IMG/VR virus record: IMGVR_UViG_3300027850_000002
Coordinates: 62,001 to 126,000 of that record
Source of the DNA: a virus
Length of the DNA: 64,000 nucleotides
Strand: one strand, 5' to 3'
The notes beneath the pieces were generated by a model. The model had not been told where the DNA came from and did no database searches. It saw only the letters and a program-made list of their open reading frames with translations. Made by a program: the position numbers and the translations under genes. This document shows, in pieces, positions 3,593 to 50,561 of this stretch. Each line of letters begins with the position of its first letter. Position 1 is the first letter of the stretch.

Positions 3593-4079
3593 GTTATCCA
3601 CTGAGTTGATGGGCGGCGGTGGTAATCCCGAACGCAACCGTGCACGGGAGTGGTATCTCGTAAATCGAGAACGAGGCATTGCTCGTTCCAAGCAATGGGT
3701 TCTAGATAACAAAGAGACGCGCAAAGAGAATATGCGCGCATGGCGAGAAGCAAATAGATCGCGCCTACGGCAGTATTTACGAAATTGGTTTCTCGTACAT
3801 CCTGAGAAAAACCGAGAATACAGCCTTCGATATAGTTACCGCGCGTGTACAGCCCCGGGGTTCGCAACCGCCGAACAAATTGAAGCGAGGGTCGCCTTCT
3901 TTGGAGGGGTCTGCGCGTATTGCGGTGGTACGTACGATCATCTTGAGCACGCGATTTCATTGTCGCGTGGTGGGACGAACTGGCCCGCGAATCTCCATCC
4001 AGCCTGCCAACGTTGCAACCTGGCGAAGGGTGGCCGCACCATCTTTGAATTTCTTGATTGTTCACCTAAACGCCTATAA
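3564..4079 (+). CDS. Freestanding HNH homing endonuclease
   Basis: Up to 171 residues. The N-terminal two thirds is a basic repeat-like helix typical of phage HNH proteins (WYLVNRERG, MRAWREANRSR, FLVHPEKNREY). The C-terminus carries the zinc-HNH fold: CAYCGG, LEHAISLSRGG, then NLHPACQRCNLAKGG. By eye the gene is less GC-rich than its neighbours and sits alone between divergent genes, as expected of an inserted homing gene. The start is uncertain: ATGs at 3564, 3591 and 3609 are all possible, and the first two overlap the 5' end of the opposite gene. I favour 3609 biologically but give the full open frame. Confidence 0.8.
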   Translation: MKNSESFSFMLSTELMGGGGNPERNRAREWYLVNRERGIARSKQWVLDNKETRKENMRAWREANRSRLRQYLRNWFLVHPEKNREYSLRYSYRACTAPGFATAEQIEARVAFFGGVCAYCGGTYDHLEHAISLSRGGTNWPANLHPACQRCNLAKGGRTIFEFLDCSPKRL

Positions 4080-19074: not shown

Positions 19075-19898
19075 TCACTCGTAAGACGCTTGGTAGTGTG
19101 TTCTTGAATATGGTGATCCCCCAGGCGCGTACCGCCTCGATGTACTACGCCGAAGTCGCACGGGTGCCGTTGGTGGATGACCCCACCGAAGAGAGGCGCC
19201 TGTTGCAACGATGGCAGCAACATCAAGACGTCAAGGCACGCAACGCCATCGTGCAAACCCATCTCCGCTTCGTCGTGAAGATGGCGCACAAGCGCAGCAA
19301 GGATCCCGAAGCCGTCAAGGACTTCATCGCGGCAGGAAACCTGGGTCTCCTTAAGGCGACCGACAAGTTTGACTGGGTACGCAAACCGTACATTCGCTTT
19401 CTGACGTACGCGGGTTGGTGGGTCTACGAAGAGATGTCGAATCAGGACTACACGACGGCCACGCTCGTTCACGTCCCCGCCCATCGCCAGAAAGCACAAC
19501 GCAGAAACGCACGGGAGTTCCGCGCGGCGGTCCAAGAGCACGGACCCGATGCTGCCTCGGTGCAGAAGATGAACCCCGGACTGTCCGAGAGCGTCGTCAT
19601 GCCGCTCGAGGCGGCGCGTTACACCACCAATGCGACCGAGAGTGAGCCGACGTCTACCTATGGGTCGGATCGGCTTCGTTCGATCGTTCGTGAGGTCATT
19701 GGTCGACTGCCTTCCCGAGAGCAGACCGTCCTCAACCTCTTCTACGGCATCAAAGACGATGCACGGAACTTGGTCCAGATCGCGGCCATCATGGGCATGT
19801 GCTCTGAGCGAGTTCGGCAAATCAAGACCAACGGGATGCGCTTACTTCAGGCTGAGTTCGAAGAAGAGCTGCTGACCGCCGAAGACGCGTATCTCTAG
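19071..19898 (+). CDS. Sigma70-family RNA polymerase sigma factor
   Basis: 275 residues from TTG 19071; ATGs at 19110 and 19140 are alternatives. Region 1.2-like sequence is YYAEVARVPLVDDPTEERRL. Region 2 is HLRFVVKMAHKRSKDPE, DFIAAGNLGLLKATDKFDW and IRFLTYAGWWVYEEM; region 3.0 is LVHVPAHRQKAQRR. Region 4 is REVIGRLPSREQTVLNLFYG with the helix-turn-helix QIAAIMGMCSERVRQIK. It is therefore a full primary-like sigma rather than an ECF factor. It is the only plus-strand gene between two leftward clusters. It probably redirects host or phage RNA polymerase to the TATAAT/TATCAT promoters of the late region. Confidence 0.9.
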   Translation: MITRKTLGSVFLNMVIPQARTASMYYAEVARVPLVDDPTEERRLLQRWQQHQDVKARNAIVQTHLRFVVKMAHKRSKDPEAVKDFIAAGNLGLLKATDKFDWVRKPYIRFLTYAGWWVYEEMSNQDYTTATLVHVPAHRQKAQRRNAREFRAAVQEHGPDAASVQKMNPGLSESVVMPLEAARYTTNATESEPTSTYGSDRLRSIVREVIGRLPSREQTVLNLFYGIKDDARNLVQIAAIMGMCSERVRQIKTNGMRLLQAEFEEELLTAEDAYL

Positions 19899-25123: not shown

Positions 25124-26914
25124 ATGGCCATTGATGGAATGTTCGACTCGGGCGTTTCCGATCTGTCGACGCACAACACGTCGTCACACGGTAGTCCACT
25201 GTTCGACTTCCTCACGGCGTTCGCGCCTAGGAAGCTCAAGGACCTCTTTCGTCTTTGCGAGTACCTCTACTTCAACAGCGCCCAGATCTACGCGGCATTG
25301 CAGAAGTTCTGTACGTATCCCGTCACGGACATCGTCTACGAGACGCAGAACGAAGCGCTCAAGGATTACTACGAAGACCTACACAACAAGACGCTCAAGA
25401 CCAAACGCATCTTGATCCGTGCGGCCGTCGACAAGTTCGTCTACGGAAACGCGTTCTTCTCGATGTACGCGCCGTTCGTTCGCTTCCTCAAGTGTCCGAA
25501 GTGCGCGACGCTGACCAACATCCAGCAGGTCACCTACAAGTTCAAGTTGAAGAAGCTGGCGTTCAACTACACGTGCAAGGGCTGCAGCGTTCGCGTCGAC
25601 GTCACTGACAAGGACGTCATCGATCGCAAGATCACACGCAAGGATCGTATCTCAGTGATCCGCTGGGATCCGAAGCTGATGGACATCGACTACAACCCCA
25701 TCACCGGACACAGCGAGTACTACTACACGATCCCCAAGGAAATTAAGGAGCGTTGCGCCAAGGGGAACAAGCACCTCATCGACACCATGCCGATGGAGTT
25801 CTTGAAGGCGATCCGCGAGGACAAGATCTTCAAGTTCGACGAGGGTCAAGTCTTCCACATGCGCATGGATGCGCCTGCGGGTATCGAAGCGCAGTGGGGC
25901 TTCCCGCCACTCGCGTCGACGATCAAGCTGTTCTTCTACGCGGCCGTGCTGCGTAAGGCGAACGAGGCCATCGCGCTCGAGTACATCGTTCCCCTGCGCA
26001 TCATCTCGCCGAAGCAGTCGACGGCAAACGCTGATCCGATGACCACCATCTCCTTGGCCAAGTGGTCCGAGGAGATGAAGACGTCGGTCAAGAAGTGGCG
26101 CCGCGATCCACTGCACATCATGTGGTCGCCAATCCCCGCCGAAGTCACACACCTCGGTGGACAGGCGCGCGCACTCATGACGCTCGGCGAAGTCCAGGCG
26201 GCTGAAGACAACATCATTGCAGCGATGGGGTTGCCCAAGGAGTTCATCTACGGAGGTTTCTCCGCGATGGGCTCGGGCATTCAGTTGCGCGTCCTCGAGA
26301 ATCAGCTCGTCCACCAAACCGGCGACCTCAATGACCTTCTTCAATGGGTCACTGACAAATCCGCGAAGCAGCTCGGACGTGGCACCGTGGTGGTCTCGCT
26401 CGCTCCGTTCCGTTTCATCGACGACGTCCAACAGAAATCCCTTCTGCTGCAGCTCAACGGCGCAGACCCATCGACGGGTCCTTGGATTTCCAAGCGCACG
26501 ATCGGCGTGGCGTTCGACATCGATCCAAGCGACGAGCGCAAGTGGCGCAAGCAAGAGGCGCTCGACGATGCGCGTGTCGCGCAAGAGCTGCAGGTCGAGA
26601 TGCAGAAGCGGCAGAACAACCTTGGAGCCCAGGCACGTGCGCAGGCTCAGCAAGGTCAGCAAGGGCTGTCCTACGACCAGCAGGCCGTGATCGCAGAGGC
26701 AGATCAGCTCGTGCAACAACTGATGGGGTTGGACCCGGGAACGCGGCAATCGCAAATGCACGCGCTTCAGACCGAAGACATGGTGATGTACGCCGTGGTC
26801 AAGGAACGTCTGCACGACCAGACCACGCAGCAAAACCAGCAAGCGATCGCAGCGGCCCGCCAAGGCGGCGATCCCGCAGCCAACGGAGTGCCCCCTCCAG
26901 GCGCCGTGGGTTGA
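25124..26914 (+). CDS. Portal protein
   Basis: 596 residues, preceded by GGGGTAAACC. The fold signature of large-phage portals is seen in PRKLKDLFRLCEYLY, AAVDKFVYGNAFFSMY, LRIISPKQS, ALMTLGEVQAAEDNIIAAMG and LPKEFIYGGFSAMG, ending in a Gln-rich tail. A four-Cys zinc knuckle (LKCPKCATL ... YTCKGCSVR, about residues 125-160) is inserted near the stem domain. It forms the dodecameric ring through which DNA is packaged and to which the neck binds. First gene of the 39-kb rightward late region, divergent from the helicase operon. A TATCAT at 25097-25102 is a weak promoter candidate. Confidence 0.88.
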   Translation: MAIDGMFDSGVSDLSTHNTSSHGSPLFDFLTAFAPRKLKDLFRLCEYLYFNSAQIYAALQKFCTYPVTDIVYETQNEALKDYYEDLHNKTLKTKRILIRAAVDKFVYGNAFFSMYAPFVRFLKCPKCATLTNIQQVTYKFKLKKLAFNYTCKGCSVRVDVTDKDVIDRKITRKDRISVIRWDPKLMDIDYNPITGHSEYYYTIPKEIKERCAKGNKHLIDTMPMEFLKAIREDKIFKFDEGQVFHMRMDAPAGIEAQWGFPPLASTIKLFFYAAVLRKANEAIALEYIVPLRIISPKQSTANADPMTTISLAKWSEEMKTSVKKWRRDPLHIMWSPIPAEVTHLGGQARALMTLGEVQAAEDNIIAAMGLPKEFIYGGFSAMGSGIQLRVLENQLVHQTGDLNDLLQWVTDKSAKQLGRGTVVVSLAPFRFIDDVQQKSLLLQLNGADPSTGPWISKRTIGVAFDIDPSDERKWRKQEALDDARVAQELQVEMQKRQNNLGAQARAQAQQGQQGLSYDQQAVIAEADQLVQQLMGLDPGTRQSQMHALQTEDMVMYAVVKERLHDQTTQQNQQAIAAARQGGDPAANGVPPPGAVG

Positions 26915-27339: not shown

Positions 27340-30300
27340 ATGGTGCCGCTACGCCCAATGCTCGAAGACGCGGCCACGCGTCGCGAGATGATCCGCAAGA
27401 AGGTCATCGAGGGTCTCGAACAATCGTTCCCGCTGAAGGCGGGCAAACACATGGTCGAGCTGTCCAACGTTCGGGTGGACCCGCAGGAGTTTTCCTCCCG
27501 CGAACAGAAGCGTGCGGTGCTCGAAGGCAAGACGTTATCGGAACGTGTACGCGGTGACATCACGGTCAAGAACGCAGCGGGCGGTGTCGTCGACCACTCG
27601 AAGGACTTCACACTGCTTCAGCTGCCGTACTTTACGCCGCGACACACGTTCATCCTCGACGGCACAGAGTACTCCGTATCGAATCAGCTGCGCACCAAAC
27701 CAGGCGCGTACGTCCGTCGCCGCGGCAACGAAGAGCTGGAGGCGACGTTCAACCTTTCAAAGGGCGCCAACTTCCGTGTGTCGATGGAGCCCGAGAAGGG
27801 CCTCCTCTACATGCAGCCGTCACACACGACGACCAAGATCCCGTTGCATCCCATCCTACGCGCGCTGGGGATGCCGCATCAGGACATCGCGGCCGGATGG
27901 GGCTCCGAAATCGCGGGCATGAATCGTGACGCTTGGAAGAATCCAGACAAGCACGTCAGCAAGCTTTACGAGACGCTCATCCATCCCGCGAAACAGGTCG
28001 CAGCGACCACAGAAGATCGAGCACACGCGTTGCGTGAATACTTCAGTGCAACGGCGATGGACCCTGAGGTCACTGCACACACGCTCGGTTATCCGTACGA
28101 CAAAGCTTCGTCATCGTCGATCCTGGCGGCATCCAAGAAACTGCTCGACGTGCACAGGGCCGCCGCCGATGTCGACGACCGTGACTCGTTGGCGTTCAAA
28201 ACGTTTCACTCCGTAGACGACTTCGTCAAAGAACGGGTTCAGCTGGAAGCGCGTGCGATGCGCGCAAAGCTTGGCTGGAAACTGGACGCGAGCCACGGCA
28301 ACCTGAAGAAGGCGCTGCCCGCAGGACCGTTCACGCGTTCGATGCACGGTCTCTTGGTGGGCTCGTCGCTTTCGGCGGTCCCCATGCAGATCAATCCGAT
28401 GGAGCTGCTCGACGAGGCGTCACGCGTCACGATGCTTGGTGAAGGTGCGATTGCGTCCGAGCGCGCGATCCCCCTCGAGGCTCGTGATGTTCATCCAACC
28501 CACTTCGGAATTCTGGACCCTGCACGCACGCCTGAAAGCTTCAAGGTGGGCGTGGACCTGCGCGCAACAATCGGCGCACGGCGTGATGACAAGGGAAACC
28601 TCTACGCGCCCGTGCGCGATATCAAGAGCGGCGCAGCGACGTATCTCAAGGCGGGCGACATGGCGAAGTCCGTCATCGCATTCCCTGGCGAACATGTCGG
28701 GCCAGGAAAAATGGTCGATGCGATGGCGCACGGAGTGGTGTCGCGTGTGTCGTCCGACAAGGTCACGCACCAGCTCGAACACGTCGCTGATCAGTACGGG
28801 CCGACCTCAAACCTGTTGCCGTTGGTCTACGGTATCCAGGCAAACCGCGTGCTCATGGCCAGCAAACACCAAGGCCAGGCATTGCCGCTCACGTACCGTG
28901 AAGCGCCGCTCGTACAGGTCGCGTCGTGGAAGCCAGGGACGTCTGTCGAACGAGAGATGGTCAAACTGATTGTTCCAACCGCGCGCTTCGCCGGCATGGT
29001 CACAAAGATCGACGACGATCACATCCACATCACGCCGCACACAGACAAACACGCATCTGAGGCCGCATCTGAAGTCGAGACGCGGTTGGAACGTGTGAAG
29101 GTGGCAGCGACGGAGCCTCACAAACTCCATTACGACGTGCACTTTCCGCTCGCTGCCAAGACGATGCTCCACAATGAGCTAACCGTGAAGGTGGGCGACC
29201 GTGTCGAAAAGGACCAGCTCCTCGCGCACTCGAACTTCACCAAGGACGGAACGCTCGCCCTCGGGACCAACCTGCGCGTGGCGTACATGCCCTACCGCGG
29301 CCTCAACACCAACGATGGCATCGTCGTATCGCAAGGCGCTGCGGACAAGCTCACCAGCGAACACATGTACCAACACGCGCTCTCACGTGACGGTGATGTT
29401 CAGCTAGGTCGAGAAAAACATCGTACGTACTTCGGCAGTCGCTACACCGCAGAGCAGTACAACAAGCTAGACGACGACGGTGTCGTCAAACCCGGTACGA
29501 CATTGCACAAGGGTGACTTGATTGTCGCGGGTATTCGAGAGAACAAAGTCACGGGGGACGCGCTCCTCCTTGGCAAGCTGTCCAAGTCCTTGGTCAAGCC
29601 GTATCAAGAAGTCACGCAAGTCTGGACGCACGACCATCCCGGTACGGTGATCGACGTTGCCAAGACCGCCAAGCAAGCCGCTGCATCTGTTCGTACGCAA
29701 GAAACGCTTCAAATCGGCGACAAGCTGTCCAACCGATTCGGCAACAAGGGCGTCATCGCGAAGATCATCCCAGATCATCAGATGATCCAGGACGAACACG
29801 GGCGCCCTGTCGACCTGCTGTTCACCTCCGCGGGCATCGTCTCGCGCATTAACCCCGCGCAGGTCATCGAGACAGCGCTCGGCAAAGTTGCTGAGAAGAT
29901 CGGCAAACCGATCGTCGTACCGCAATACACGCCGGGCCGAGACAACATCCAGTTCGCCAAGAACCTGCTCAAGGAGCACGGGCTCACCGACAAGGAAACG
30001 GTCCTCGACCCGATGACGGGAAAGAAAATCCCGAACATCGTCGTGGGCAAGAGCTACATCCTCAAGCTGTTCAAGACGACGGACTCGAACTGGGCAGCAC
30101 ACGGCGCCGAGAAGTACGACTACAACCAGCAGCCCGCACGTGGTGGTGACGAAGGCGCCAAGGGCATCGGCAAGATGGAGTTCGACGGGCTCGTGGCACA
30201 CAACGCCCGGAATGTGTTGCGTGAAGCTGCGTCCATCAAGAGCCAACGTAACGACGAGTTCTGGCGTGCAATTCAACTCGGGCTTCCAACACCCTCGCCC

Positions 30301-31755
30301 AAGACGCCGTTCGCCTACGACAAGCTGCAGAGCATGCTTACGGGCGCCGGCGTCAAGGTCACAAAGACAGGCTCGAGGCTCGCGTTGGGACCTTTGACCG
30401 ACGCCGACGTCAAGTCGATGTCCTCAGGTGCGCTCAAGGATCCGAGCAAGCTCATTCGCGCCAAGGACCTTCGTCCCGAGACACACGGTCTGTTCGACCC
30501 CGGCATGACCGGCGGTATGGCAGGAACGAAATGGTCACACGTCGATTTGCACGAACCGATCGTCAACCCAGTGTTCGAAGAGCCGGTCCGTCGACTGCTT
30601 GGGCTCACGCAGAAGGAGTTCACGGAGCGCGTCGGCAAAGGCGGGCAGTGGTTCAAAACCGCACTCAATGAGATTCACGTCGACAACAAACTGAAGGACC
30701 TGACAGCACAGTCAAAGAAGGCGCGCGGACCAGCGCTCGATGGTGTGGTGAAGCAGATCAAGTATCTCGGGGCGCTAAAGGAACGTGGCCTCAAGCCTGC
30801 GGACGCCTACGTCATCTCAATGGTGCCCGTGACACCGCCCGTGATTCGTCCAATCCTTCCGCTTCAAGATGGGCGACTGCAGGTCAGCGATGCGAACCTC
30901 CTCTACAAGGATGCATTCCTCGCGAACCACCAACTCCGAGAATCAGCGAAGACGTTGCCGTCGTCGGAACTTCCGATGCCTCGTCAACATCTCTACGACG
31001 CGGTGAGCGCGCTTTACGGCGTGGGTGACCCCGTCAGCCCAGGTGCAGAGAAGCGCGGAGCCAAAGGCTACCTCGCGGCCATCACAGGTACGCGCCCTGG
31101 AAGTGGGTTCTTCCAGTCCAAGATCATGAAGCGTCAACAAGACGTCAGTGGTCGCGCGACCATCGCGCCTGACCCTACCTTGTCAATGGACGAGATTGGC
31201 GTGCCTGAAGGCATGCTCTGGGGCATGTATGGAAAGTTCGTCATCGGGCGCTTGGTCCGACGCGGCTATACAGCAACGGATGCGCAGAAGATGGTGGATG
31301 ATCGTGTCCCGACTGCACGGGATGAATTGATCAATGAATCACATGAACGTCCGGTCATGGTCAACCGAGCACCGTCATTGCATCGTTTCAACATCGTGGG
31401 GGCGTATCCCAAGATTGTTGAGGGAAAGACGCTCAAGCTAAACCCGTTCGCTGAAAAAGGGATGAACGCGGACTACGATGGGGATGCGCTACAGATCCAC
31501 GCTCCGGTAACACCTGGAGGCATCGAAGACGTCAAAAAGATGACGCTCTCGCACCTGATCTTCGCGGACAAACGTCCCGGCGTCTTGAACATCGCGCCTG
31601 ACATGGAGGCCGTGCTCGGGCTGCACCGTGCCACGCAGGTGGCCACCAATAAGAAGCTCAAGCACTTCGAGTCGCAAGAAGAAGCGATGGCGGCGTACCA
31701 CCGCGGGGACATCACCCTCAACGACCCCATCGAAATCAAAGGCAAGCACCTATAA
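27340..31755 (+). CDS. RNA polymerase beta subunit fused to N-terminal half of beta-prime
   Basis: 1471 residues. The beta part shows GTNLRVAYMPYRGLNTNDG and GDKLSNRFGNKGVIAKIIP, with K795 and K803 at the places of the E. coli active-centre lysines K1065 and K1073, then GGDEGAKGIGKMEFDGLVAH. Around residue ~1040 it passes directly into beta-prime (LRPETHGLFDPGMTGG, WSHVDLHEPIVNPVF). The beta-prime N-terminal zinc ribbon is missing between these two segments. It continues through VPVTPPVIRPILPLQDGR, QDVSGRATIAP and RPVMVNRAPSLHR to NADYDGDALQIHAP, with Mg-binding D1378, D1380 and D1382. It stops just after NIAPDMEAVLGLHRAT, before the bridge helix, which is in the gene at 32549. Sitting between portal and capsid genes, it may be a virion-packaged polymerase. 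Confidence 0.93.
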   Translation: MVPLRPMLEDAATRREMIRKKVIEGLEQSFPLKAGKHMVELSNVRVDPQEFSSREQKRAVLEGKTLSERVRGDITVKNAAGGVVDHSKDFTLLQLPYFTPRHTFILDGTEYSVSNQLRTKPGAYVRRRGNEELEATFNLSKGANFRVSMEPEKGLLYMQPSHTTTKIPLHPILRALGMPHQDIAAGWGSEIAGMNRDAWKNPDKHVSKLYETLIHPAKQVAATTEDRAHALREYFSATAMDPEVTAHTLGYPYDKASSSSILAASKKLLDVHRAAADVDDRDSLAFKTFHSVDDFVKERVQLEARAMRAKLGWKLDASHGNLKKALPAGPFTRSMHGLLVGSSLSAVPMQINPMELLDEASRVTMLGEGAIASERAIPLEARDVHPTHFGILDPARTPESFKVGVDLRATIGARRDDKGNLYAPVRDIKSGAATYLKAGDMAKSVIAFPGEHVGPGKMVDAMAHGVVSRVSSDKVTHQLEHVADQYGPTSNLLPLVYGIQANRVLMASKHQGQALPLTYREAPLVQVASWKPGTSVEREMVKLIVPTARFAGMVTKIDDDHIHITPHTDKHASEAASEVETRLERVKVAATEPHKLHYDVHFPLAAKTMLHNELTVKVGDRVEKDQLLAHSNFTKDGTLALGTNLRVAYMPYRGLNTNDGIVVSQGAADKLTSEHMYQHALSRDGDVQLGREKHRTYFGSRYTAEQYNKLDDDGVVKPGTTLHKGDLIVAGIRENKVTGDALLLGKLSKSLVKPYQEVTQVWTHDHPGTVIDVAKTAKQAAASVRTQETLQIGDKLSNRFGNKGVIAKIIPDHQMIQDEHGRPVDLLFTSAGIVSRINPAQVIETALGKVAEKIGKPIVVPQYTPGRDNIQFAKNLLKEHGLTDKETVLDPMTGKKIPNIVVGKSYILKLFKTTDSNWAAHGAEKYDYNQQPARGGDEGAKGIGKMEFDGLVAHNARNVLREAASIKSQRNDEFWRAIQLGLPTPSPKTPFAYDKLQSMLTGAGVKVTKTGSRLALGPLTDADVKSMSSGALKDPSKLIRAKDLRPETHGLFDPGMTGGMAGTKWSHVDLHEPIVNPVFEEPVRRLLGLTQKEFTERVGKGGQWFKTALNEIHVDNKLKDLTAQSKKARGPALDGVVKQIKYLGALKERGLKPADAYVISMVPVTPPVIRPILPLQDGRLQVSDANLLYKDAFLANHQLRESAKTLPSSELPMPRQHLYDAVSALYGVGDPVSPGAEKRGAKGYLAAITGTRPGSGFFQSKIMKRQQDVSGRATIAPDPTLSMDEIGVPEGMLWGMYGKFVIGRLVRRGYTATDAQKMVDDRVPTARDELINESHERPVMVNRAPSLHRFNIVGAYPKIVEGKTLKLNPFAEKGMNADYDGDALQIHAPVTPGGIEDVKKMTLSHLIFADKRPGVLNIAPDMEAVLGLHRATQVATNKKLKHFESQEEAMAAYHRGDITLNDPIEIKGKHL

Positions 31756-31756
31756 T
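31751..31756 (+). promoter_or_regulatory. -10 box (TATAAT) overlapping the rpoBC-like stop codon
   Basis: TATAAT contains the TAA stop of the polymerase fusion and ends 5 nt before the GTG at 31762. The transcription start would fall at or next to that GTG, so the mRNA would be leaderless. No good -35 is seen. Confidence 0.6.
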
Positions 31757-31761
31757 AAAGC

Positions 31762-32130
31762 GTGTCCTTCGTCAGCAACGCGCACGGTCGAGGCGTGGTC
31801 GCCGCTCTCGTGCGGTTCGGTCTCAAGAACGCAGCCGAGGAGCTGCGGCTGAAAATCCCGAGCCGTACGTTTCACGGATTCGACGCGGCCCACAAAACAG
31901 AAGCGGACCGCGGCGCGAAGAAAGCAGCTGACGAGATCGAGGGCAACGCGAACAACCTCGCGGACATGTTCAAGCAGCTCGAAGAGGGTGTTTCACCCGC
32001 CGTTCAGCTTGCCTCGCGTGACCCGCTCGATCGACAAGTGTCGTGGGGCGCACCGTCGAACCTTGCGGCCGGCGATGCGGGGAACCGCGTTAGTGATATG
32101 GGACAACCAACCGGCTTTGGAGGCGTCTGA
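31762..32130 (+). CDS. Small tagged protein between the two polymerase genes (122 aa)
   Basis: GTG start 5 nt after TATAAT. The N-terminus has the recurrent module NAHGRGVVAALVRFGLK. The rest is charged and helical (AAHKTEADRGAKKAADEIEG, ADMFKQLEEGVSPAV) and ends in a Gly/Asn-rich tail (GDAGNRVSDMGQPTGFGG). Not similar to any polymerase part I know. It lies exactly in the break of beta-prime. Proposed to be a virion or polymerase-associated protein; function unknown. Confidence 0.75.
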   Translation: MSFVSNAHGRGVVAALVRFGLKNAAEELRLKIPSRTFHGFDAAHKTEADRGAKKAADEIEGNANNLADMFKQLEEGVSPAVQLASRDPLDRQVSWGAPSNLAAGDAGNRVSDMGQPTGFGGV

Positions 32131-32537
32131 TGCTCGATCGTTTTGTTAACCAGGGTCGCATTGACGCGATGGTGCGTTTCAAGGTCAGCATGTCGCTGGG
32201 TAAACCAGGTGGCGGGAGTCGCTTCAGCGCTCCGCCAATGGCAGCAGCACCGGCTGCGGCTGCCGCCAGTGCGGGCGGCGGCGGTTTCATGGACAAGGCC
32301 AAAGCGTTCGGCAGTGGCCAGCTCGGGGCCGCGAAGGACCTTCTGGGCAATATGCGCCAAGGCCTCGGCGGAGCAGCGTCCCCCGAGCTAGGTGCGGCAG
32401 CTCGCGGTGCTGCGCTCGGCAATCTCAAGACTCTCGCGCCGTCGCTCCTCGCAGGCGGCGGTCTCTACTTGATGCACAAGCACAAGCAGGAGCAGGCGCA
32501 GGCGCGGCAGCAGCAGATGATGCCGGGCAGTTTCTGA
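32130..32537 (+). CDS. Tagged Gly/Ala-rich hydrophobic protein (135 aa)
   Basis: ATG overlaps the previous stop (TGATG). Residues 3-18 carry the module DRFVNQGRIDAMVRFKV. It is followed by Ala/Gly-rich segments (APAAAAASAGGGGFMDKAKA, GQLGAAKDLLGNMRQGLGG, LKTLAPSLLAGGGLYLMHKH) able to form glycine-zipper membrane or channel helices, and a Gln-rich end. Small glycine-rich proteins with this module recur in the late region and may be internal virion proteins ejected with DNA. Confidence 0.75.
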   Translation: MLDRFVNQGRIDAMVRFKVSMSLGKPGGGSRFSAPPMAAAPAAAAASAGGGGFMDKAKAFGSGQLGAAKDLLGNMRQGLGGAASPELGAAARGAALGNLKTLAPSLLAGGGLYLMHKHKQEQAQARQQQMMPGSF

Positions 32538-32548
32538 AACGTTGAACC

Positions 32549-34330
32549 ATGCCGACGACCCTTGGCCAACATCTCGTCGATTCGATCCTTCCACAGAAGT
32601 GGAAGGGTGGCGGCGTTCTGACCAAGGGCGCGTTGAACACCATGCTTCTGGGTGTGGCCAAGGACGACGTGCACAAGTACCCCGACGTCGTGACACGGCT
32701 CAAAAGGCTGGGTGACGAGGTCGCTACGCTCGACGGAATTTCCGTCGGTCTCGACGACATTGCACCGCACGCAACCGACCGTGACGCCGCGTTGAAGCCG
32801 CACGCTGACGCGTTCCACCAGGCGACGAACAACCCCGACAAGATCAAGGCCCTCATCGGCGGGCAGAACGCGATGCTCAACCTCGCGCGCAATCACCCCG
32901 GCACGATGGGTGAGATGGTACGTGCTGGCGGACGCGGCAACGCCGCGCAGCTCATGCGTACGGTTGGAGCGCCGGTGTTTGCCGAAGATTCCAAAGGGAA
33001 AGTCATCCCGTGGTTCGTCAACAAGAGCTTCTCCGAAGGACTCAAGCCGGCAGACGCATGGGTGATGGGCGGGCAGGCGCGCGTCAATGCGGTGGTCTCG
33101 AACATTTCGGTCGTTGAACCAGGAGACCTTGCCAAAATTCTCGTCAACAACATGGGCGACCAGCTCGTGTCGTCCGTCGACTGCGGAACGCACAATGGTC
33201 TCGCGATGCTTCCGACCGATGCCCACATCATCGATCGGTACCTGGCAGGCACGAATCAACTGATCACGCCGCAGCTTGCGTCGCACCTCGCCAAAGAAGG
33301 CAAGGACGTCATCGTGCGTTCACCGATGACTTGTCAGGCCGCACACGGTGTCTGTCAACACTGCCAGGGCTTGTCGACGTCAGGACACGCCCACCCCATC
33401 GGGACGAACATCGGCGTACGCGCGGCACAGGCCCTCGCGGAACCTCTCACCCAGTTCGCGCTCAACGCCAAGCACGGCGGACGTGTGGTTGGTGTCGACG
33501 ACGAGAAGCGGCTCGAGGGCATCAAAGGCGTGCGAGCACTGCTCGAGATTCCATCGTCGTTCGCGCACAAGGCCGTGCTCTCGGATCGTGACGGGTCGGT
33601 GTCAAAGATCGACAAGGCACCACAAGGCGGTCACTTCGTCTTCGTCGGCGCCGGCAGTCACTACGTACCGCCCGCGCACAAGGTGACGGTCAACGTCGGC
33701 CAGTCAATGTACGCGGGCGACCTGCTCTCAGACGGCGTTCCCAAGCCAGACGAAATCGTTCAACACAAGGGACTCGGCGAAGGACGGCGTTACCTCGTCG
33801 ACGCGCTCTCGGACGTCTACAAACGTGCCGGCTCCGAGATCGACAAACGGCACCTGGAAATCTTGGCCAAGAGCGTGCTCAACCACGTTCAGATCACAGA
33901 CCCAGGTCCGCACGATGCCTTTCTCAAAGGTGACATCGTCAACTACAACCAGTTCCAGTCGGCGGTCGCTGCGTCGAAACAACGGCGTCCGACGGCAGAC
34001 GCGATCGGCGAAACGCTTGCCGAAGGCGTCCTACATCACACTGCGGGCACGTCCATGACACAGCCGATGGTCGATCAACTCGTTCGCCACGGAATCACAA
34101 CCGTCGCGACCGCGAATCCCGGTCCGCGCGCACTGCCTTTCATGCGGCCCGCGTCACGTACGCCGCTGCTCAACCCTGATTGGATGGCACGTCTCGCACA
34201 CCGTTACTTGAAAGAGTCACTGTTGACGGGCATCCACCGTGGTGATGTTTCGAACTTGCATGGAGCGTCACCCGTACCTGCGTACGTTGCAGGCACTGAG
34301 TTTGGCTTAGGCGAAGAGGGCCATTACTGA
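32549..34330 (+). CDS. RNA polymerase beta-prime subunit, C-terminal half
   Basis: 593 residues. The bridge-helix region is MVRAGGRGNAAQLMRTVG and AWVMGGQARVNAVVSNISVV (E. coli MADSGARGSAAQ and STHGARKGLADTAL). The second zinc site is intact: C212 in SVDCGTH and C262, C269, C272 in TCQAAHGVCQHCQG. The trigger helix is IGVRAAQALAEPLTQFALNA. The C-terminal part (VNVGQSMYAGDLLSDGVP and LEILAKSVLNHVQI) follows the beta-prime order to the end. It must assemble with the product of 27340-31755 to form a catalytic centre. The large lineage insertion in the trigger loop is absent. Confidence 0.92.
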   Translation: MPTTLGQHLVDSILPQKWKGGGVLTKGALNTMLLGVAKDDVHKYPDVVTRLKRLGDEVATLDGISVGLDDIAPHATDRDAALKPHADAFHQATNNPDKIKALIGGQNAMLNLARNHPGTMGEMVRAGGRGNAAQLMRTVGAPVFAEDSKGKVIPWFVNKSFSEGLKPADAWVMGGQARVNAVVSNISVVEPGDLAKILVNNMGDQLVSSVDCGTHNGLAMLPTDAHIIDRYLAGTNQLITPQLASHLAKEGKDVIVRSPMTCQAAHGVCQHCQGLSTSGHAHPIGTNIGVRAAQALAEPLTQFALNAKHGGRVVGVDDEKRLEGIKGVRALLEIPSSFAHKAVLSDRDGSVSKIDKAPQGGHFVFVGAGSHYVPPAHKVTVNVGQSMYAGDLLSDGVPKPDEIVQHKGLGEGRRYLVDALSDVYKRAGSEIDKRHLEILAKSVLNHVQITDPGPHDAFLKGDIVNYNQFQSAVAASKQRRPTADAIGETLAEGVLHHTAGTSMTQPMVDQLVRHGITTVATANPGPRALPFMRPASRTPLLNPDWMARLAHRYLKESLLTGIHRGDVSNLHGASPVPAYVAGTEFGLGEEGHY

Positions 34331-34776
34331 TGCTTGAGCGTGCACATACGAAGGGCATCGACGATGCCCTCACGTGTTTCCAGATCAAAGAGTCACGCTT
34401 TATTGATTCGGTCAAACGTATGGCGATCGGTCAACCTGGACGTGTCTTCGTCGAAGGGCCCAAGGCGTTCGCTCCCGGCGGTCTACTCGGACACAAGAAC
34501 GTCTGGTGGCCCGATGTCAAAGGCGCGCCTCTGAACTGGCTCGGTCGTGCGGGTACAGTCGCCGCACCCCTCATGGCATTGTCTGCTATGCGCTCAAATC
34601 CACACGAAGGCACTTTGTCAAACGCGCTTGGTGCGCTTGGTGGTATCGCAGGAAGCGCGTACGGTTTCCCTGCGCTCGGTATGATCGGTGGTCCTATGCT
34701 CGGAGCTGCGGGTGCGCATCTCGGGCGTGGTGTTGGCCACTTGCTCAGCAGTGAACCAAAGAATCCAAACCAATGA
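34330..34776 (+). CDS. Tagged Gly-rich hydrophobic protein (148 aa)
   Basis: ATG overlaps the polymerase stop (TGATG), so translation is coupled. The N-terminal module is ERAHTKGIDDALTCFQIK. After a basic region and a Gly/Pro turn come two hydrophobic glycine-zipper helices (AGTVAAPLMALSAMRS and ALGALGGIAGSAYGFPALGM with IGGPMLGAAGAHLG). It resembles small membrane-penetrating or core proteins, but no family is recognised. Confidence 0.75.
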   Translation: MLERAHTKGIDDALTCFQIKESRFIDSVKRMAIGQPGRVFVEGPKAFAPGGLLGHKNVWWPDVKGAPLNWLGRAGTVAAPLMALSAMRSNPHEGTLSNALGALGGIAGSAYGFPALGMIGGPMLGAAGAHLGRGVGHLLSSEPKNPNQ

Positions 34777-35057: not shown

Positions 35058-36362
35058 ATGTTCAAGCATGCGTACGTCCGAGGCATCCAGACCGCGTTGG
35101 TCAACAACGGCGCAGCCGTGTTCCCCGACGAGACCACCGCGGCCAAGGTCGCGGACTACATCGCAGAGCGTGTCGAGATCGACCCGCTGACGGCGGTGCC
35201 ACGTGAGCTGACCCACAAGGTCGCCACTGACATCGTCGCTGCTTCGGATTGGATCAAGAAGCAGCCGAACTTCAAGGCGGCATCGTTCAACAAGCTCGCG
35301 ACGTGGGAAGACGTTGCGCAGGTCGCGGACCGCAACGCGACCCAGTTGATGACGAAGGCCGCCGAGGGTTCCACCATCGAAGGTGGCGACAAGGGAAACA
35401 CCGAGGGCCAGTCGCCTGTTGGTGAGACCAAGATGGACGCGACCCAGCGTCCTCCGGGCTACGCCGAGAACAGCCTCGGCAAGACCGACGTCGACACCCG
35501 TCCGGGCGCAGTTGGCAAGGAAGAGCCGCAGCCGGTTCAGCCCAAGGAGACTGACCACAAGGACAACTCGGTCGTGGAGCACTCGCGCACCGCGTCGCTC
35601 GCGGACATGTTCCGCAAGTCGGCTGAGGGTTCGACGATCCTCGGCGGAGACAAGGGCAACAAGGAGCCGACGACTGGCGAAGGCAAGATGGACGCGACGC
35701 AGCGTCCTCCGGGCTATGCCGTCCTTCCCCACCAGGGCGCCCTCGGTGCCATGATGGAGCAGGTCACGGGCCCCGCAGTGATCGGTCGCGAGACCCCGCA
35801 GCCGCACATGCCGAAGGAGTCGCCGAGCGGTTCGAACTCGCTCACCGAGCACTCGGCCAAGGCCGCTGCTGAAGACCCGTACATCACGCTCTTCAAGAAG
35901 GTCGCGTCCGAGATCCACGAGTACCTTCCGGGCGGTCTTCACGAGGACAGCAAGATCGCCGCGGTTCGCGCCTGCATGGGCATGACGACCGAAGAGAAGG
36001 CGTACTACCTCCGTGGCTTGCAGAAGGAAGCGGCCGACGCGTCGGTTGGTTCGGAAACGCGCACGGGTATGGGTCGCTCGCGTCCCGGTGCCTACGACGG
36101 TCGCTCTGCCAACCAGAGCACCAAGCAGACCGATGACCTTCCGCCGTTCATGAAGAAGGACGACGACGAGAAGAAGGACGAGAAGAAGGACGACGACAAG
36201 GGTGAGAGCAAGGGCGGAATGCCGGCATTCATCCAAGACAAGATCGACGCCCGCAACGCCGACAAGAAGGACGGCAACAAGGACGAGAAGAAGGATGACG
36301 ACAAGAAGGAAGCTTCGTTGCGCGACTTCTTCCGTCGCATCGACGCGGCCCAGCGCGCGTGA
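35058..36362 (+). CDS. Repeat-containing charged virion/scaffold-like protein (434 aa)
   Basis: N-terminal module form FKHAYVRGIQTALVNNGAA. Residues ~102-136 and ~189-221 are two copies of a Gly/Thr/Pro unit (AEGSTIEGGDKGN ... KMDATQRPPGYA). A helical part follows (YITLFKKVASEIHEYLPGG, GMTTEEKAYYLRGLQKEAAD). The last 80 residues are a Lys/Asp-rich tract (KKDDDEKKDEKKDDDKGESK-like) ending KKEASLRDFFRRIDAAQRA. The highly charged, low-complexity build would suit a scaffold or an internal head protein. It has its own late promoter. Confidence 0.75.
   Translation: MFKHAYVRGIQTALVNNGAAVFPDETTAAKVADYIAERVEIDPLTAVPRELTHKVATDIVAASDWIKKQPNFKAASFNKLATWEDVAQVADRNATQLMTKAAEGSTIEGGDKGNTEGQSPVGETKMDATQRPPGYAENSLGKTDVDTRPGAVGKEEPQPVQPKETDHKDNSVVEHSRTASLADMFRKSAEGSTILGGDKGNKEPTTGEGKMDATQRPPGYAVLPHQGALGAMMEQVTGPAVIGRETPQPHMPKESPSGSNSLTEHSAKAAAEDPYITLFKKVASEIHEYLPGGLHEDSKIAAVRACMGMTTEEKAYYLRGLQKEAADASVGSETRTGMGRSRPGAYDGRSANQSTKQTDDLPPFMKKDDDEKKDEKKDDDKGESKGGMPAFIQDKIDARNADKKDGNKDEKKDDDKKEASLRDFFRRIDAAQRA
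35361..35720 (+). repeat. Two imperfect copies of a ~100-bp coding repeat
   Basis: 35361-35465 and 35622-35720 are diverged direct repeats, in frame, sharing GAGGGTTC, GGCGACAAGGG-like and AAGATGGACGCGAC, then CAGCGTCCTCCGGGCTA. They encode AEGSTI-x-GGDKGN and KMDATQRPPGYA. Confidence 0.75.
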
Positions 36363-46889: not shown

Positions 46890-47828
46890 ATGTCGGCAGC
46901 GTACAAAACTCAGACCCAGCAGGTCTCGGCTCAGTTCATCAACTCCAACTTCGTCCGTAAGGTCGAGGACGGTCGCACCAAGGAGGCGGAGGCCGAGGGC
47001 ACCGCCTTCATCCGCCAGAAGCTCCGTCAGGAATCCTTCGCGCGCGAGATCATCGAGCCAGTCATGCTGGCGGACGATGAGATCGACCGCGACGAGAACA
47101 CGGATCAGCCCAAGAAGATCGTCGAGAAGGAGCCCGACTCCGTCGCCACGTTCGTGCCGTTCAACGGTACGGCGCAGCGCACGTGGTTCCGTGGCAAGCG
47201 CTTCTCGGTCTTCTTCGGCAAGACCGAGTCGCAGCGGTTCACCAAGAACAAGTTCGAGCTGATGACGTATCAGAACGACATCCGCAAGATCCTCTCCGAC
47301 AACTCGGTGAAGGACATGTCGGACCAGGAAGACCAGAAGTTCCTGGACACCATCAACGCGATCATCGCGTTGAACCTCGCGACGCAGCGCACCCTCGCGG
47401 GCGCGTTCAACTCGAGCGCGTTCAAGCAAGGCTTCCAGGCGCTCGTCAATCGGAAGCAGCCAATCGGCAAGCTCCTGATGTCGAAGTCGACGTACTACGA
47501 GGCCCTCGACCTGCCGGCGACCGCCGTCGGTAACGACGTGGCGTCGCGGCACTACGACGTGGGCATCGAGGCCGAGGAGAAGCTGTGGGGCATCCCCGTG
47601 GTTTCGACCATCAAGCGTGAGATCGTCGACGACGTCGCCGGTGCCACCCGCCGCTCGGTCTACGTGTTCGCGCCGCAGAACTACCTCGGCGTGTTCTTCC
47701 TGCTGCAGGACGCAACCCTGTACATCAAGCAGGAAGCCGACATCATCGAGTTCTGGAGCTACGCAGCCCCGGGCATCGGGATCGGCAACACGCTCGCGTC
47801 GCAGCGTATCGACCTGCCGTTCGCCTGA
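46890..47828 (+). CDS. Major capsid protein, HK97 fold
   Basis: 312 residues with AAGGAG before the ATG. Features of HK97-type capsids: charged N-terminal arm (VRKVEDGRTKEAEAEG), E-loop-like region around FVPFNGTAQRTWFRGKRFSV, long spine helix (SDQEDQKFLDTINAIIALNL) and C-terminal domain (LWGIPVVSTIKREIVDDVAG, VFFLLQDATLYIKQEADIIE). It builds the icosahedral shell. No long N-terminal delta domain is present, so scaffolding is presumably supplied by separate proteins upstream. A strong hairpin follows the gene. Confidence 0.85.
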   Translation: MSAAYKTQTQQVSAQFINSNFVRKVEDGRTKEAEAEGTAFIRQKLRQESFAREIIEPVMLADDEIDRDENTDQPKKIVEKEPDSVATFVPFNGTAQRTWFRGKRFSVFFGKTESQRFTKNKFELMTYQNDIRKILSDNSVKDMSDQEDQKFLDTINAIIALNLATQRTLAGAFNSSAFKQGFQALVNRKQPIGKLLMSKSTYYEALDLPATAVGNDVASRHYDVGIEAEEKLWGIPVVSTIKREIVDDVAGATRRSVYVFAPQNYLGVFFLLQDATLYIKQEADIIEFWSYAAPGIGIGNTLASQRIDLPFA

Positions 47829-49174: not shown

Positions 49175-49180
49175 TATAAT
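49175..49180 (+). promoter_or_regulatory. -10 box (TATAAT) of a predicted leaderless promoter
   Basis: TATAAT in GCCCTATAATTCAACC ends exactly 6 nt before ATG 49187. No Shine-Dalgarno and no obvious -35. Confidence 0.65.
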
Positions 49181-49371: not shown

Positions 49372-49767
49372 ATGTCGCTGTTGCGCCAAAGGTCGGCTGA
49401 GGGCGGGCGCGCAGCGCTCGCGGCCTTTGGCGTGGTTAAGACTGCGACGGGGTTCAAGCAACCGGGGTTCAAGTCCGTCGGAATCCTACTTCCGAAGGCT
49501 GCGGATCTTCCGCCGATCCCACCGCCAAGCGTGCCTTCGCCGCTCGGTATTGGTAGGATCGAGAGCAACTACGACTTCGTACCCAAGGTCGCCTTCAACG
49601 TCGGAATGGGGGCTTCGACTTCCACTGACGGAGCGGGCGCTCAGCGGGGAGTTCCAGCGGATACGGGACGTCGTCAACGCAGCGTCATCGACCGGGCGTT
49701 CCAACGCAACGAAGACGATTACGCAACAAGCAGCATGCCGTTGCCAGGGGACGTTGTCGCGCCATGA
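49372..49767 (+). CDS. Tagged hypothetical protein (131 aa)
   Basis: ATG 8 nt after the previous stop. Module-like start RQRSAEGGRAALAAFGVVK. The rest is Pro/Gly-rich and basic (KAADLPPIPPPSVPSPLGIG, GAQRGVPADTGRRQRSVIDR) and looks largely disordered. Its stop overlaps the next ATG (ATGA). Unassigned. Confidence 0.68.
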   Translation: MSLLRQRSAEGGRAALAAFGVVKTATGFKQPGFKSVGILLPKAADLPPIPPPSVPSPLGIGRIESNYDFVPKVAFNVGMGASTSTDGAGAQRGVPADTGRRQRSVIDRAFQRNEDDYATSSMPLPGDVVAP

Positions 49768-50561
49768 CGCTCGAACTCATCTACGCAAATGGGCAGCTCG
49801 CGGCACTCGAACGCTACAAGCTCGGATTCCCCGCGCACCCAACGGTCGCGAACAGCGCCGTGCTGACGACGAAGAAAACTTCACCGACACTGCCCGCTGC
49901 AGCACAGCAGGGGATGGCGCCACCATCAACGCCCATGGGCCTCTCTCAGATCTTCGATGCGCACGAACAAGGTGAAACGCGCTCGGAACCTCGGCGCAAG
50001 CTGTCGGCCGATAATCTATGCACGTCGTGCCGAAGGATGAAGCACTACGGCAAATGCAGTCGTCCGCGTGCGATTCCCGAGAAGGCCGCTGATTTAAACA
50101 TCGGGATGCAGGGCTACAGCCCTGAACAGGGCAACAACCCATCCACGAGCCCTAACTACCGCTCAGCGGTCAGCTCGATCAGCTCGCTCACGCGCGCGTT
50201 AGAGGGTCGCCCCGCCGATGAGCAGGCAGCATCTGGGTTCGCGGACCTGTACCGCGGGGGCGGGATTTCGAACATGGCGGATGAGCCGGGCCAGATGTCG
50301 GGCAGCCTCGCCAAAGTCGCGAACAAGCTCAGCGCCTTCATGTTGCCCGACGCAGGGCTCCATTCGATGCACGAGCAGCGGGGACCGACCGTGAACCCGT
50401 ACGAAGAGCAGCGAACACGGATGGGAGCGCCTGTCGGCTTCGGCGACGAGGGGCTGCAACGCATCAATCGGGCCTTCAATCAGATCGACCACGCGGCCGA
50501 CACCACGAACATCGGGGGCGGCGCCGGCGATCCAGAGCCAGGGCCGGCGGTCCTTGGCTGA
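49764..50561 (+). CDS. Tagged protein with Cys knuckle (265 aa)
   Basis: ATG overlaps the previous TGA. The module is ELIYANGQLAALERYKLG. Around residues 85-100 NLCTSCRRMKHYGKCSRPR may bind zinc. The rest is Gly/Pro/Ser-rich and probably extended (MQGYSPEQGNNPSTSPNYRS, FADLYRGGGISNMADEPGQ) with a helical SLAKVANKLSAFML. It precedes connector genes. A virion role is likely but the exact role is unknown. Confidence 0.68.
   Translation: MTLELIYANGQLAALERYKLGFPAHPTVANSAVLTTKKTSPTLPAAAQQGMAPPSTPMGLSQIFDAHEQGETRSEPRRKLSADNLCTSCRRMKHYGKCSRPRAIPEKAADLNIGMQGYSPEQGNNPSTSPNYRSAVSSISSLTRALEGRPADEQAASGFADLYRGGGISNMADEPGQMSGSLAKVANKLSAFMLPDAGLHSMHEQRGPTVNPYEEQRTRMGAPVGFGDEGLQRINRAFNQIDHAADTTNIGGGAGDPEPGPAVLG

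Follow-up and report, generated by a model that had tools for sequence, protein, structure and literature searches.

Tailed phages of the multimeric-RNAP-encoding Caudovirales (mReC; Weinheimer and Aylward 2020, PMC7481178) carry an RNA polymerase that branches apart from those of cells. The phage described here shares with them beta and beta-prime subunits that are cell-like by profile and hold the NADxDGD motif; the searched parts of that paper's main text mention neither a single-chain fusion nor a cut inside beta-prime. In jumbo-phage polymerases of the phiKZ/AR9 type (PMC7598289), as in our phage, beta-prime is cut after the active-site barrel (DPBB) and alpha is missing, and a virion form exists. 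In cyanobacteria and plastids (rpoC1/rpoC2), beta-prime is likewise made as two polypeptides split 3' of the active site. Finally, Salmonella phage Arash shares with our phage a fused and cut polymerase and the portal-polymerase order, both parts being abundant in its virions according to the available part of its description (PMC10585845), which names the parts beta and beta-prime and does not describe the recut.

The locus studied here lies in a stretch of 64,000 nucleotides (the window), which spans bases 62001-126000 of a virus record 175,415 bases long. It departs from the last three of these systems as follows. Beta is whole and fused to the N-terminal part of beta-prime, whereas in phiKZ/AR9-type enzymes (PMC7598289) beta is also cut and the two subunits are unfused; the sequence is much nearer to cells than theirs, and a sigma factor is encoded. 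No alpha subunit was detectable in the window genome. The cyanobacterial cut lies about 60 residues further C-terminal, the fused part of the window ending near residue 560 of 625 of cyanobacterial gamma, and beta is separate there. Arash has homologs, in the same order, of the portal, of the two polymerase parts and of several genes 3' of them; unlike the window, it has a 4.8 kb gap between the polymerase parts with reverse-strand genes, including Ala/Gly-rich ones, and neither the W-tail nor the tag described below is detectable. Of published groups, the mReC phages and the jumbo-phage polymerases come closest; the window arrangement matches neither of the split patterns described before. 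We consider it probable, if some way from certain, that the window encodes a phage RNA polymerase which was repartitioned by a new cut, which in all likelihood serves as a virion enzyme and whose tagged neighbours are probably packaged partners.

Organization of the polymerase locus

Gene order runs from the portal through a small gene to the beta/beta-prime-N fusion, g1, g2, beta-prime-C, g3 and g4, beyond which lie more structural genes and then a capsid gene (46890-47828). The features of the window are as follows.

19098-19898, plus strand: sigma-70-like factor
25124-26914, plus strand: portal protein, homologous to Arash gp204 (E 3.9e-84), 5' of the polymerase
27340-31755, plus strand: whole beta joined to the N-part of beta-prime, 1471 aa (Pfam Rpb2_6 3.6e-47, Rpb1_2 1.9e-20; PDB beta and beta-prime matches)
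31749-31756, plus strand: CCTATAAT, promoter-like element (enriched; conserved at the junction in relatives)
31762-32130, plus strand: g1, 122 aa, GTG start; N-terminal tag and C-terminal W-tail
31774-31827, plus strand: tag of g1 (SNAHGRGVVAALVRFGLK), 22.6 bits
about 32020-32127, plus strand: W-tail of g1 (DPLDRQVSWGAPSNLAAGDAGNRVSDMGQPTGFGGV)
32130-32537, plus strand: g2, 135 aa; N-terminal tag and Ala/Gly-rich hydrophobic body
32549-34330, plus strand: beta-prime C-part, 593 aa (Pfam Rpb1_5 1.8e-17; PDB beta-prime matches; junction alignment)
34330-34776, plus strand: g3, tagged glycine-rich protein, 148 aa
34773-34985, plus strand: g4, tagged 70-aa protein; best tag match (27.2 bits)
35058-36362, plus strand: tagged 434-aa protein (MFKHAYVRGIQTALVNNGAAV), tag 20.8 bits
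48896-49165, plus strand: tagged protein, 13.4 bits
49187-49363, plus strand: tagged protein, 17.1 bits, immediately 3' of a CCTATAAT copy at 49175-49180
49764-50561, plus strand: tagged protein, 16.3 bits

A preliminary description, made from the sequence of the window, had reported two tagged genes between two polymerase parts at the break of beta-prime, and their coordinates were confirmed. The stop codon of the fused gene, TAA at 31753-31755, lies inside a TATAAT at 31751-31756, and the GTG start of g1 follows 5 nt later; g1 and g2 overlap by 1 nt, and the start of g3 is the final base of the beta-prime-C stop codon. These junction features are all confirmed as non-chance. The first polymerase part of that description is real and is more than N-terminal beta-prime: it comprises the whole of beta and the first third of beta-prime in one frame, and its translation includes the NADYDGD motif.

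The fused part ends in ...GDITLNDPIEIKGKHL (NDPIEIKGKHL), and beta-prime-C opens with MPTTLGQ, in which PTTLGQ is the counterpart of DTTVGR in E. coli. The break falls in the linker that follows the active-site domain with NADYDGD, between the pre-linker strand and the conserved TT(V/L)GR, at about residues 553-573 of E. coli beta-prime. Aligned against the proteins of E. coli, of Saccharibacteria and of phages with an uncut chain, the two parts show zero residues lost, so that nothing is absent from beta-prime at the break; g1 as a substitute for an absent beta-prime segment was ruled out on this ground.

When g1, g2 and g3 were compared with relatives, differences amounted to 0.48-0.55 at third codon positions and 0.11-0.25 at the other two, an excess which marks them as real genes under coding constraint. 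None of g1 to g4 had a match in Pfam or PHROGs. The AlphaFold model of g1 is of low confidence (pLDDT 62), and for this reason we give g1 no functional reading from structure.

Cut and uncut relatives

Scans of viral contigs returned well over a hundred loci, 98 of them with distinct gaps between the polymerase parts. All relatives of the window clade in which both parts lie close together are cut at the same point. Gap length ranged from 500 to 5,719 bp, and the same split without intervening genes was absent among the 98 distinct gaps (0/98 empty). The comparison of intact with split beta-prime found both states, in sister clades. Four contigs of the third scan (L178, L187, L192 and L197) hold a single uncut frame of 2,015-2,168 aa, and the sister clade as a whole is characterized by single-chain beta-beta-prime proteins of about 2,000-2,200 aa. 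A scan seeded with these four uncut contigs yielded 80 loci. Single-chain status was assigned to 79 of them, and an open frame of 1,800 aa or longer is present in at least 76. One sister-clade contig (L338) comes from metagenome 3300017989, the source of two of the three named mReC representatives (PMC7481178, available part), a link that consists of the shared metagenome only.

A phylogeny of 76 taxa built with FastTree, in which the contigs are metagenomic, gave the cut clade support of 1.0 and the uncut clade 0.97. Trees from either half alone returned the cut clade at 1.0 both times and the uncut clade at 0.96 and 0.51. The phage clade was monophyletic at 0.99 relative to a narrow outgroup of E. 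coli and five Saccharibacteria only. With cells outside the phage clades, the shortest history is one fusion followed by one cut. The ancestor carried beta and beta-prime as one polypeptide, as the sister clade shows; tree and alignment together show a single cut of this chain, in the cut clade and in the linker past the active-site domain, and the two pieces presumably must reassemble into one enzyme. The reverse course, in which a two-piece ancestor was re-fused in the sister clade, is possible in principle and favoured by no result. Beta-prime is uncut in cells, and the cellular root falls outside the cut clade, which forms a single branch, so that re-fusion needs one extra event; we regard it as highly improbable. 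Recutting has long been inferred for split phage polymerases, for which an intact relative had been lacking. With fused and recut states both surviving in sister clades, the fusion and recutting of a universal enzyme are documented.

The proposal that small genes split an ancestral rpoBC gene is thus borne out insofar as the gene was split, as the uncut relatives and the monophyletic cut clade indicate. The small genes may have caused the split: the gap is never empty and usually holds the W-tail gene described below, often with an Ala/Gly-rich one. What fills it differs, however, and the cut is old. A mobile element, either a homing endonuclease or an intein, may have made the cut and later have been replaced by the small genes. 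Three conserved sites of the fused polymerase, corresponding to window residues of about 400, 797 and 1385, the last inside the NADYDGD motif, are occupied in relatives by inteins (LAGLIDADG, Intein_splicing; L003 1325-2307, called from its ends only, Pfam giving no match; L020 2961-4018; L013 554-2013). A free-standing LAGLIDADG endonuclease gene (L003 5493-6038) sits exactly at the promoter and g1 start, with g1 displaced downstream, and intron mobility has been proposed for the split jumbo-phage polymerases (PMC7598289). Most relatives, however, have no endonuclease at the junction, and the event is too old for a direct view; we treat this origin of the cut as conceivable but doubtful. The inserts in the fused genes of relatives were also considered as extra splits, and this was ruled out, the inserts being in-frame inteins.

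Three contigs from bacterial assemblies (L202; L203, Desulfovibrio; L204, a Thermotogota MAG) carry the same phage polymerase, a hint of either the host or phage contamination of the assemblies.

Contents of the gap

A profile grown from g1 recovered its family in 64 of the 98 distinct gaps at E<1e-3 and in 73 at E<0.1; for 44 of these 64, no more than 13 nt separate the end of the gene from beta-prime-C. Matches outside the gaps of the searched loci were few, covered the tag half only and never included the tryptophan tail. This W-tail, with the consensus LNRxTxWGxPxxLxxGD...GGV, is found at the C-terminus of small proteins or of LigD-type primase-polymerases of about 500 aa. An Ala/Gly-rich protein often lies beside the W-tail gene. 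Deeply branching members of the cut clade (L173, L175, L179, L183 and L115) have a short tagged gene with a W-tail-like end followed by a tagged Ala/Gly-rich gene; L022, L024 and L193 join a W-tail and a g2-like Ala/Gly-rich stretch in the same gene. The Ala/Gly-rich bodies may resemble glycine-zipper membrane segments, which would suit ejection proteins.

Individual gaps held further genes. In L020 (6454-7983), and in similar gap genes, a LigD-type primase-polymerase with a LigD_N phosphoesterase domain ends in a tag and W-tail module like g1. A ferritin-like gene comes first after the fused part in L010 (Pfam Ferritin, 1.5e-11) and, as judged by eye, in L011, L012, L027, L030 and L114. The gap of L059 contains an SNF2 helicase, and that of L101 a tagged protein with an ADP-ribosyltransferase-like YHGSPRKLKTL stretch, recognized by eye only.

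Some relatives have polymerase halves more than 9 kb apart, and about 36 kb in L200, suggesting that linkage is useful and not essential. Such distances, the differing gap contents (homing endonuclease, ferritin-like protein, LigD-type primase, SNF2 helicase) and the mostly opposite-strand gap genes of Arash could indicate an ancient, neutral cut, with the gap as a tolerated landing site and the small genes as passengers without a role in the polymerase. This appears unlikely to us: the W-tail family occurs in 64-73 of 98 gaps, is restricted to them in the searched loci and usually abuts beta-prime-C, the pairing of g1 and g2 recurs in deep branches, and a promoter element is conserved at the junction. 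We read the gap as a stable nest of small genes, in which translation of the W-tail protein is usually coupled to that of beta-prime-C and an Ala/Gly-rich protein is often present.

The N-terminal tag

The tag is a motif of 16-18 residues, AYxxGxxxALxxFxL-like, present on at least nine proteins and predicted with low confidence to be helical (residues 3-18 in g1). Its profile gave nine matches above 13 bits in the genome, seven of them in or very near the training set and two (49187 and 48896) outside it. Each begins 2-5 residues past a start codon, and all are on the plus strand between 93.7 and 126.7 kb of the record; reversed ORFs of the genome gave zero matches. Across the 98 cut loci there were 83 matches, all on the polymerase strand and 79 of them near a start codon, and none in reversed sequences. 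Near uncut polymerases no match reached 12 bits, and weaker look-alikes exist. In position and recurrence the tag may parallel the capsid targeting sequence of T4-like phages, a short N-terminal peptide that directs proteins to the head.

Tagged genes flank the polymerase genes, which might suggest that the tag is a polymerase-docking peptide and not a signal for virion packaging. Further tagged genes, however, are found at a distance of about 14-30 kb, next to genes for capsid and tail, and we rate docking alone as a rather improbable role. A packaging role is preferred because of gene position, the extreme N-terminal placement of the tag and the virion proteomics of Arash; the tagged proteins would probably be in the virion with the polymerase, the tag serving as a packaging or docking signal. 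As a short sequence, the tag is testable as a virion-cargo label.

Probable virion association

According to the available part of the Arash paper (PMC10585845), virions of this phage hold both polymerase parts, the sigma factor and an Ala/Gly-rich gap protein. Spectra for gp206 (3516) and gp216 (1210) are among the most numerous, compared with 877 for the portal, 467 for sigma gp10, and 143 and 111 for the gap proteins gp213 and gp210; the virion list is long (116 proteins), and its authors allow for carry-over. Dividing the published counts by length, we obtained 2.3 spectra per residue for gp206, 2.0 for gp216, 2.0 for gp10 and 1.5 for the portal. The similar values of the first three are consistent with equal amounts of holoenzyme. 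The likening of gp213 to g2 is by composition and place only.

The suggestion that the tagged proteins and the polymerase act together gains from conserved linkage, from coupling and from the joint presence of polymerase parts and gap proteins in Arash virions as given there (PMC10585845, available part), and loses from the relatives whose halves are far apart. For the window phage we infer packaging, as well as the roles of the tag, the W-tail and the Ala/Gly-rich proteins. A more far-reaching proposal, which we offer tentatively and think less likely than its negation, is that the tag is a new virion-cargo address of the whole phage clade, that the W-tail protein is a dedicated partner of the cut polymerase, helping to rejoin, package or eject its halves, and that insertion of such a cargo gene into single-chain beta-beta-prime made the cut. 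The cultured relatives, Arash and Vibrio D69, are systems in which polymerase assembly and packaging can be tested.

The promoter-like element

TATAAT occurs 14 times in 175 kb; 11 copies have CC in front and 8 lie 4-12 nt 5' of an ORF start (ORFs of at least 100 aa), with few or no instances for unrelated hexamer permutations. The longer CCTATAAT was counted 11 times across the 175 kb, where about 0.2 copies are expected; for CTATAATT the count is 10 against 0. Nine of ten distinct close relatives, with polymerase identity as low as about 54%, have CCTATA(A/C)T where the gap begins, usually as the sole copy in the stretch and, where readable, 4-12 nt 5' of the g1 start. In L045 the stop codon has shifted and the spacing of the element to the GTG is kept. 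Enrichment, conservation at the junction and kept spacing point to CCTATAAT as a phage promoter with predicted near-leaderless transcripts. In the genus of the window, its position over the first stop would give a leaderless message that begins at g1 and runs through g2, beta-prime-C, g3 and g4. No -35 box was found, and a host sigma-70 promoter of the kind that has one was ruled out on this ground.

Copies resembling CCTATAAT also occur at window positions 4075, 49175, 52140 and 63579, of which three lie 6 nt 5' of an ATG, and such copies could define a phage regulon.
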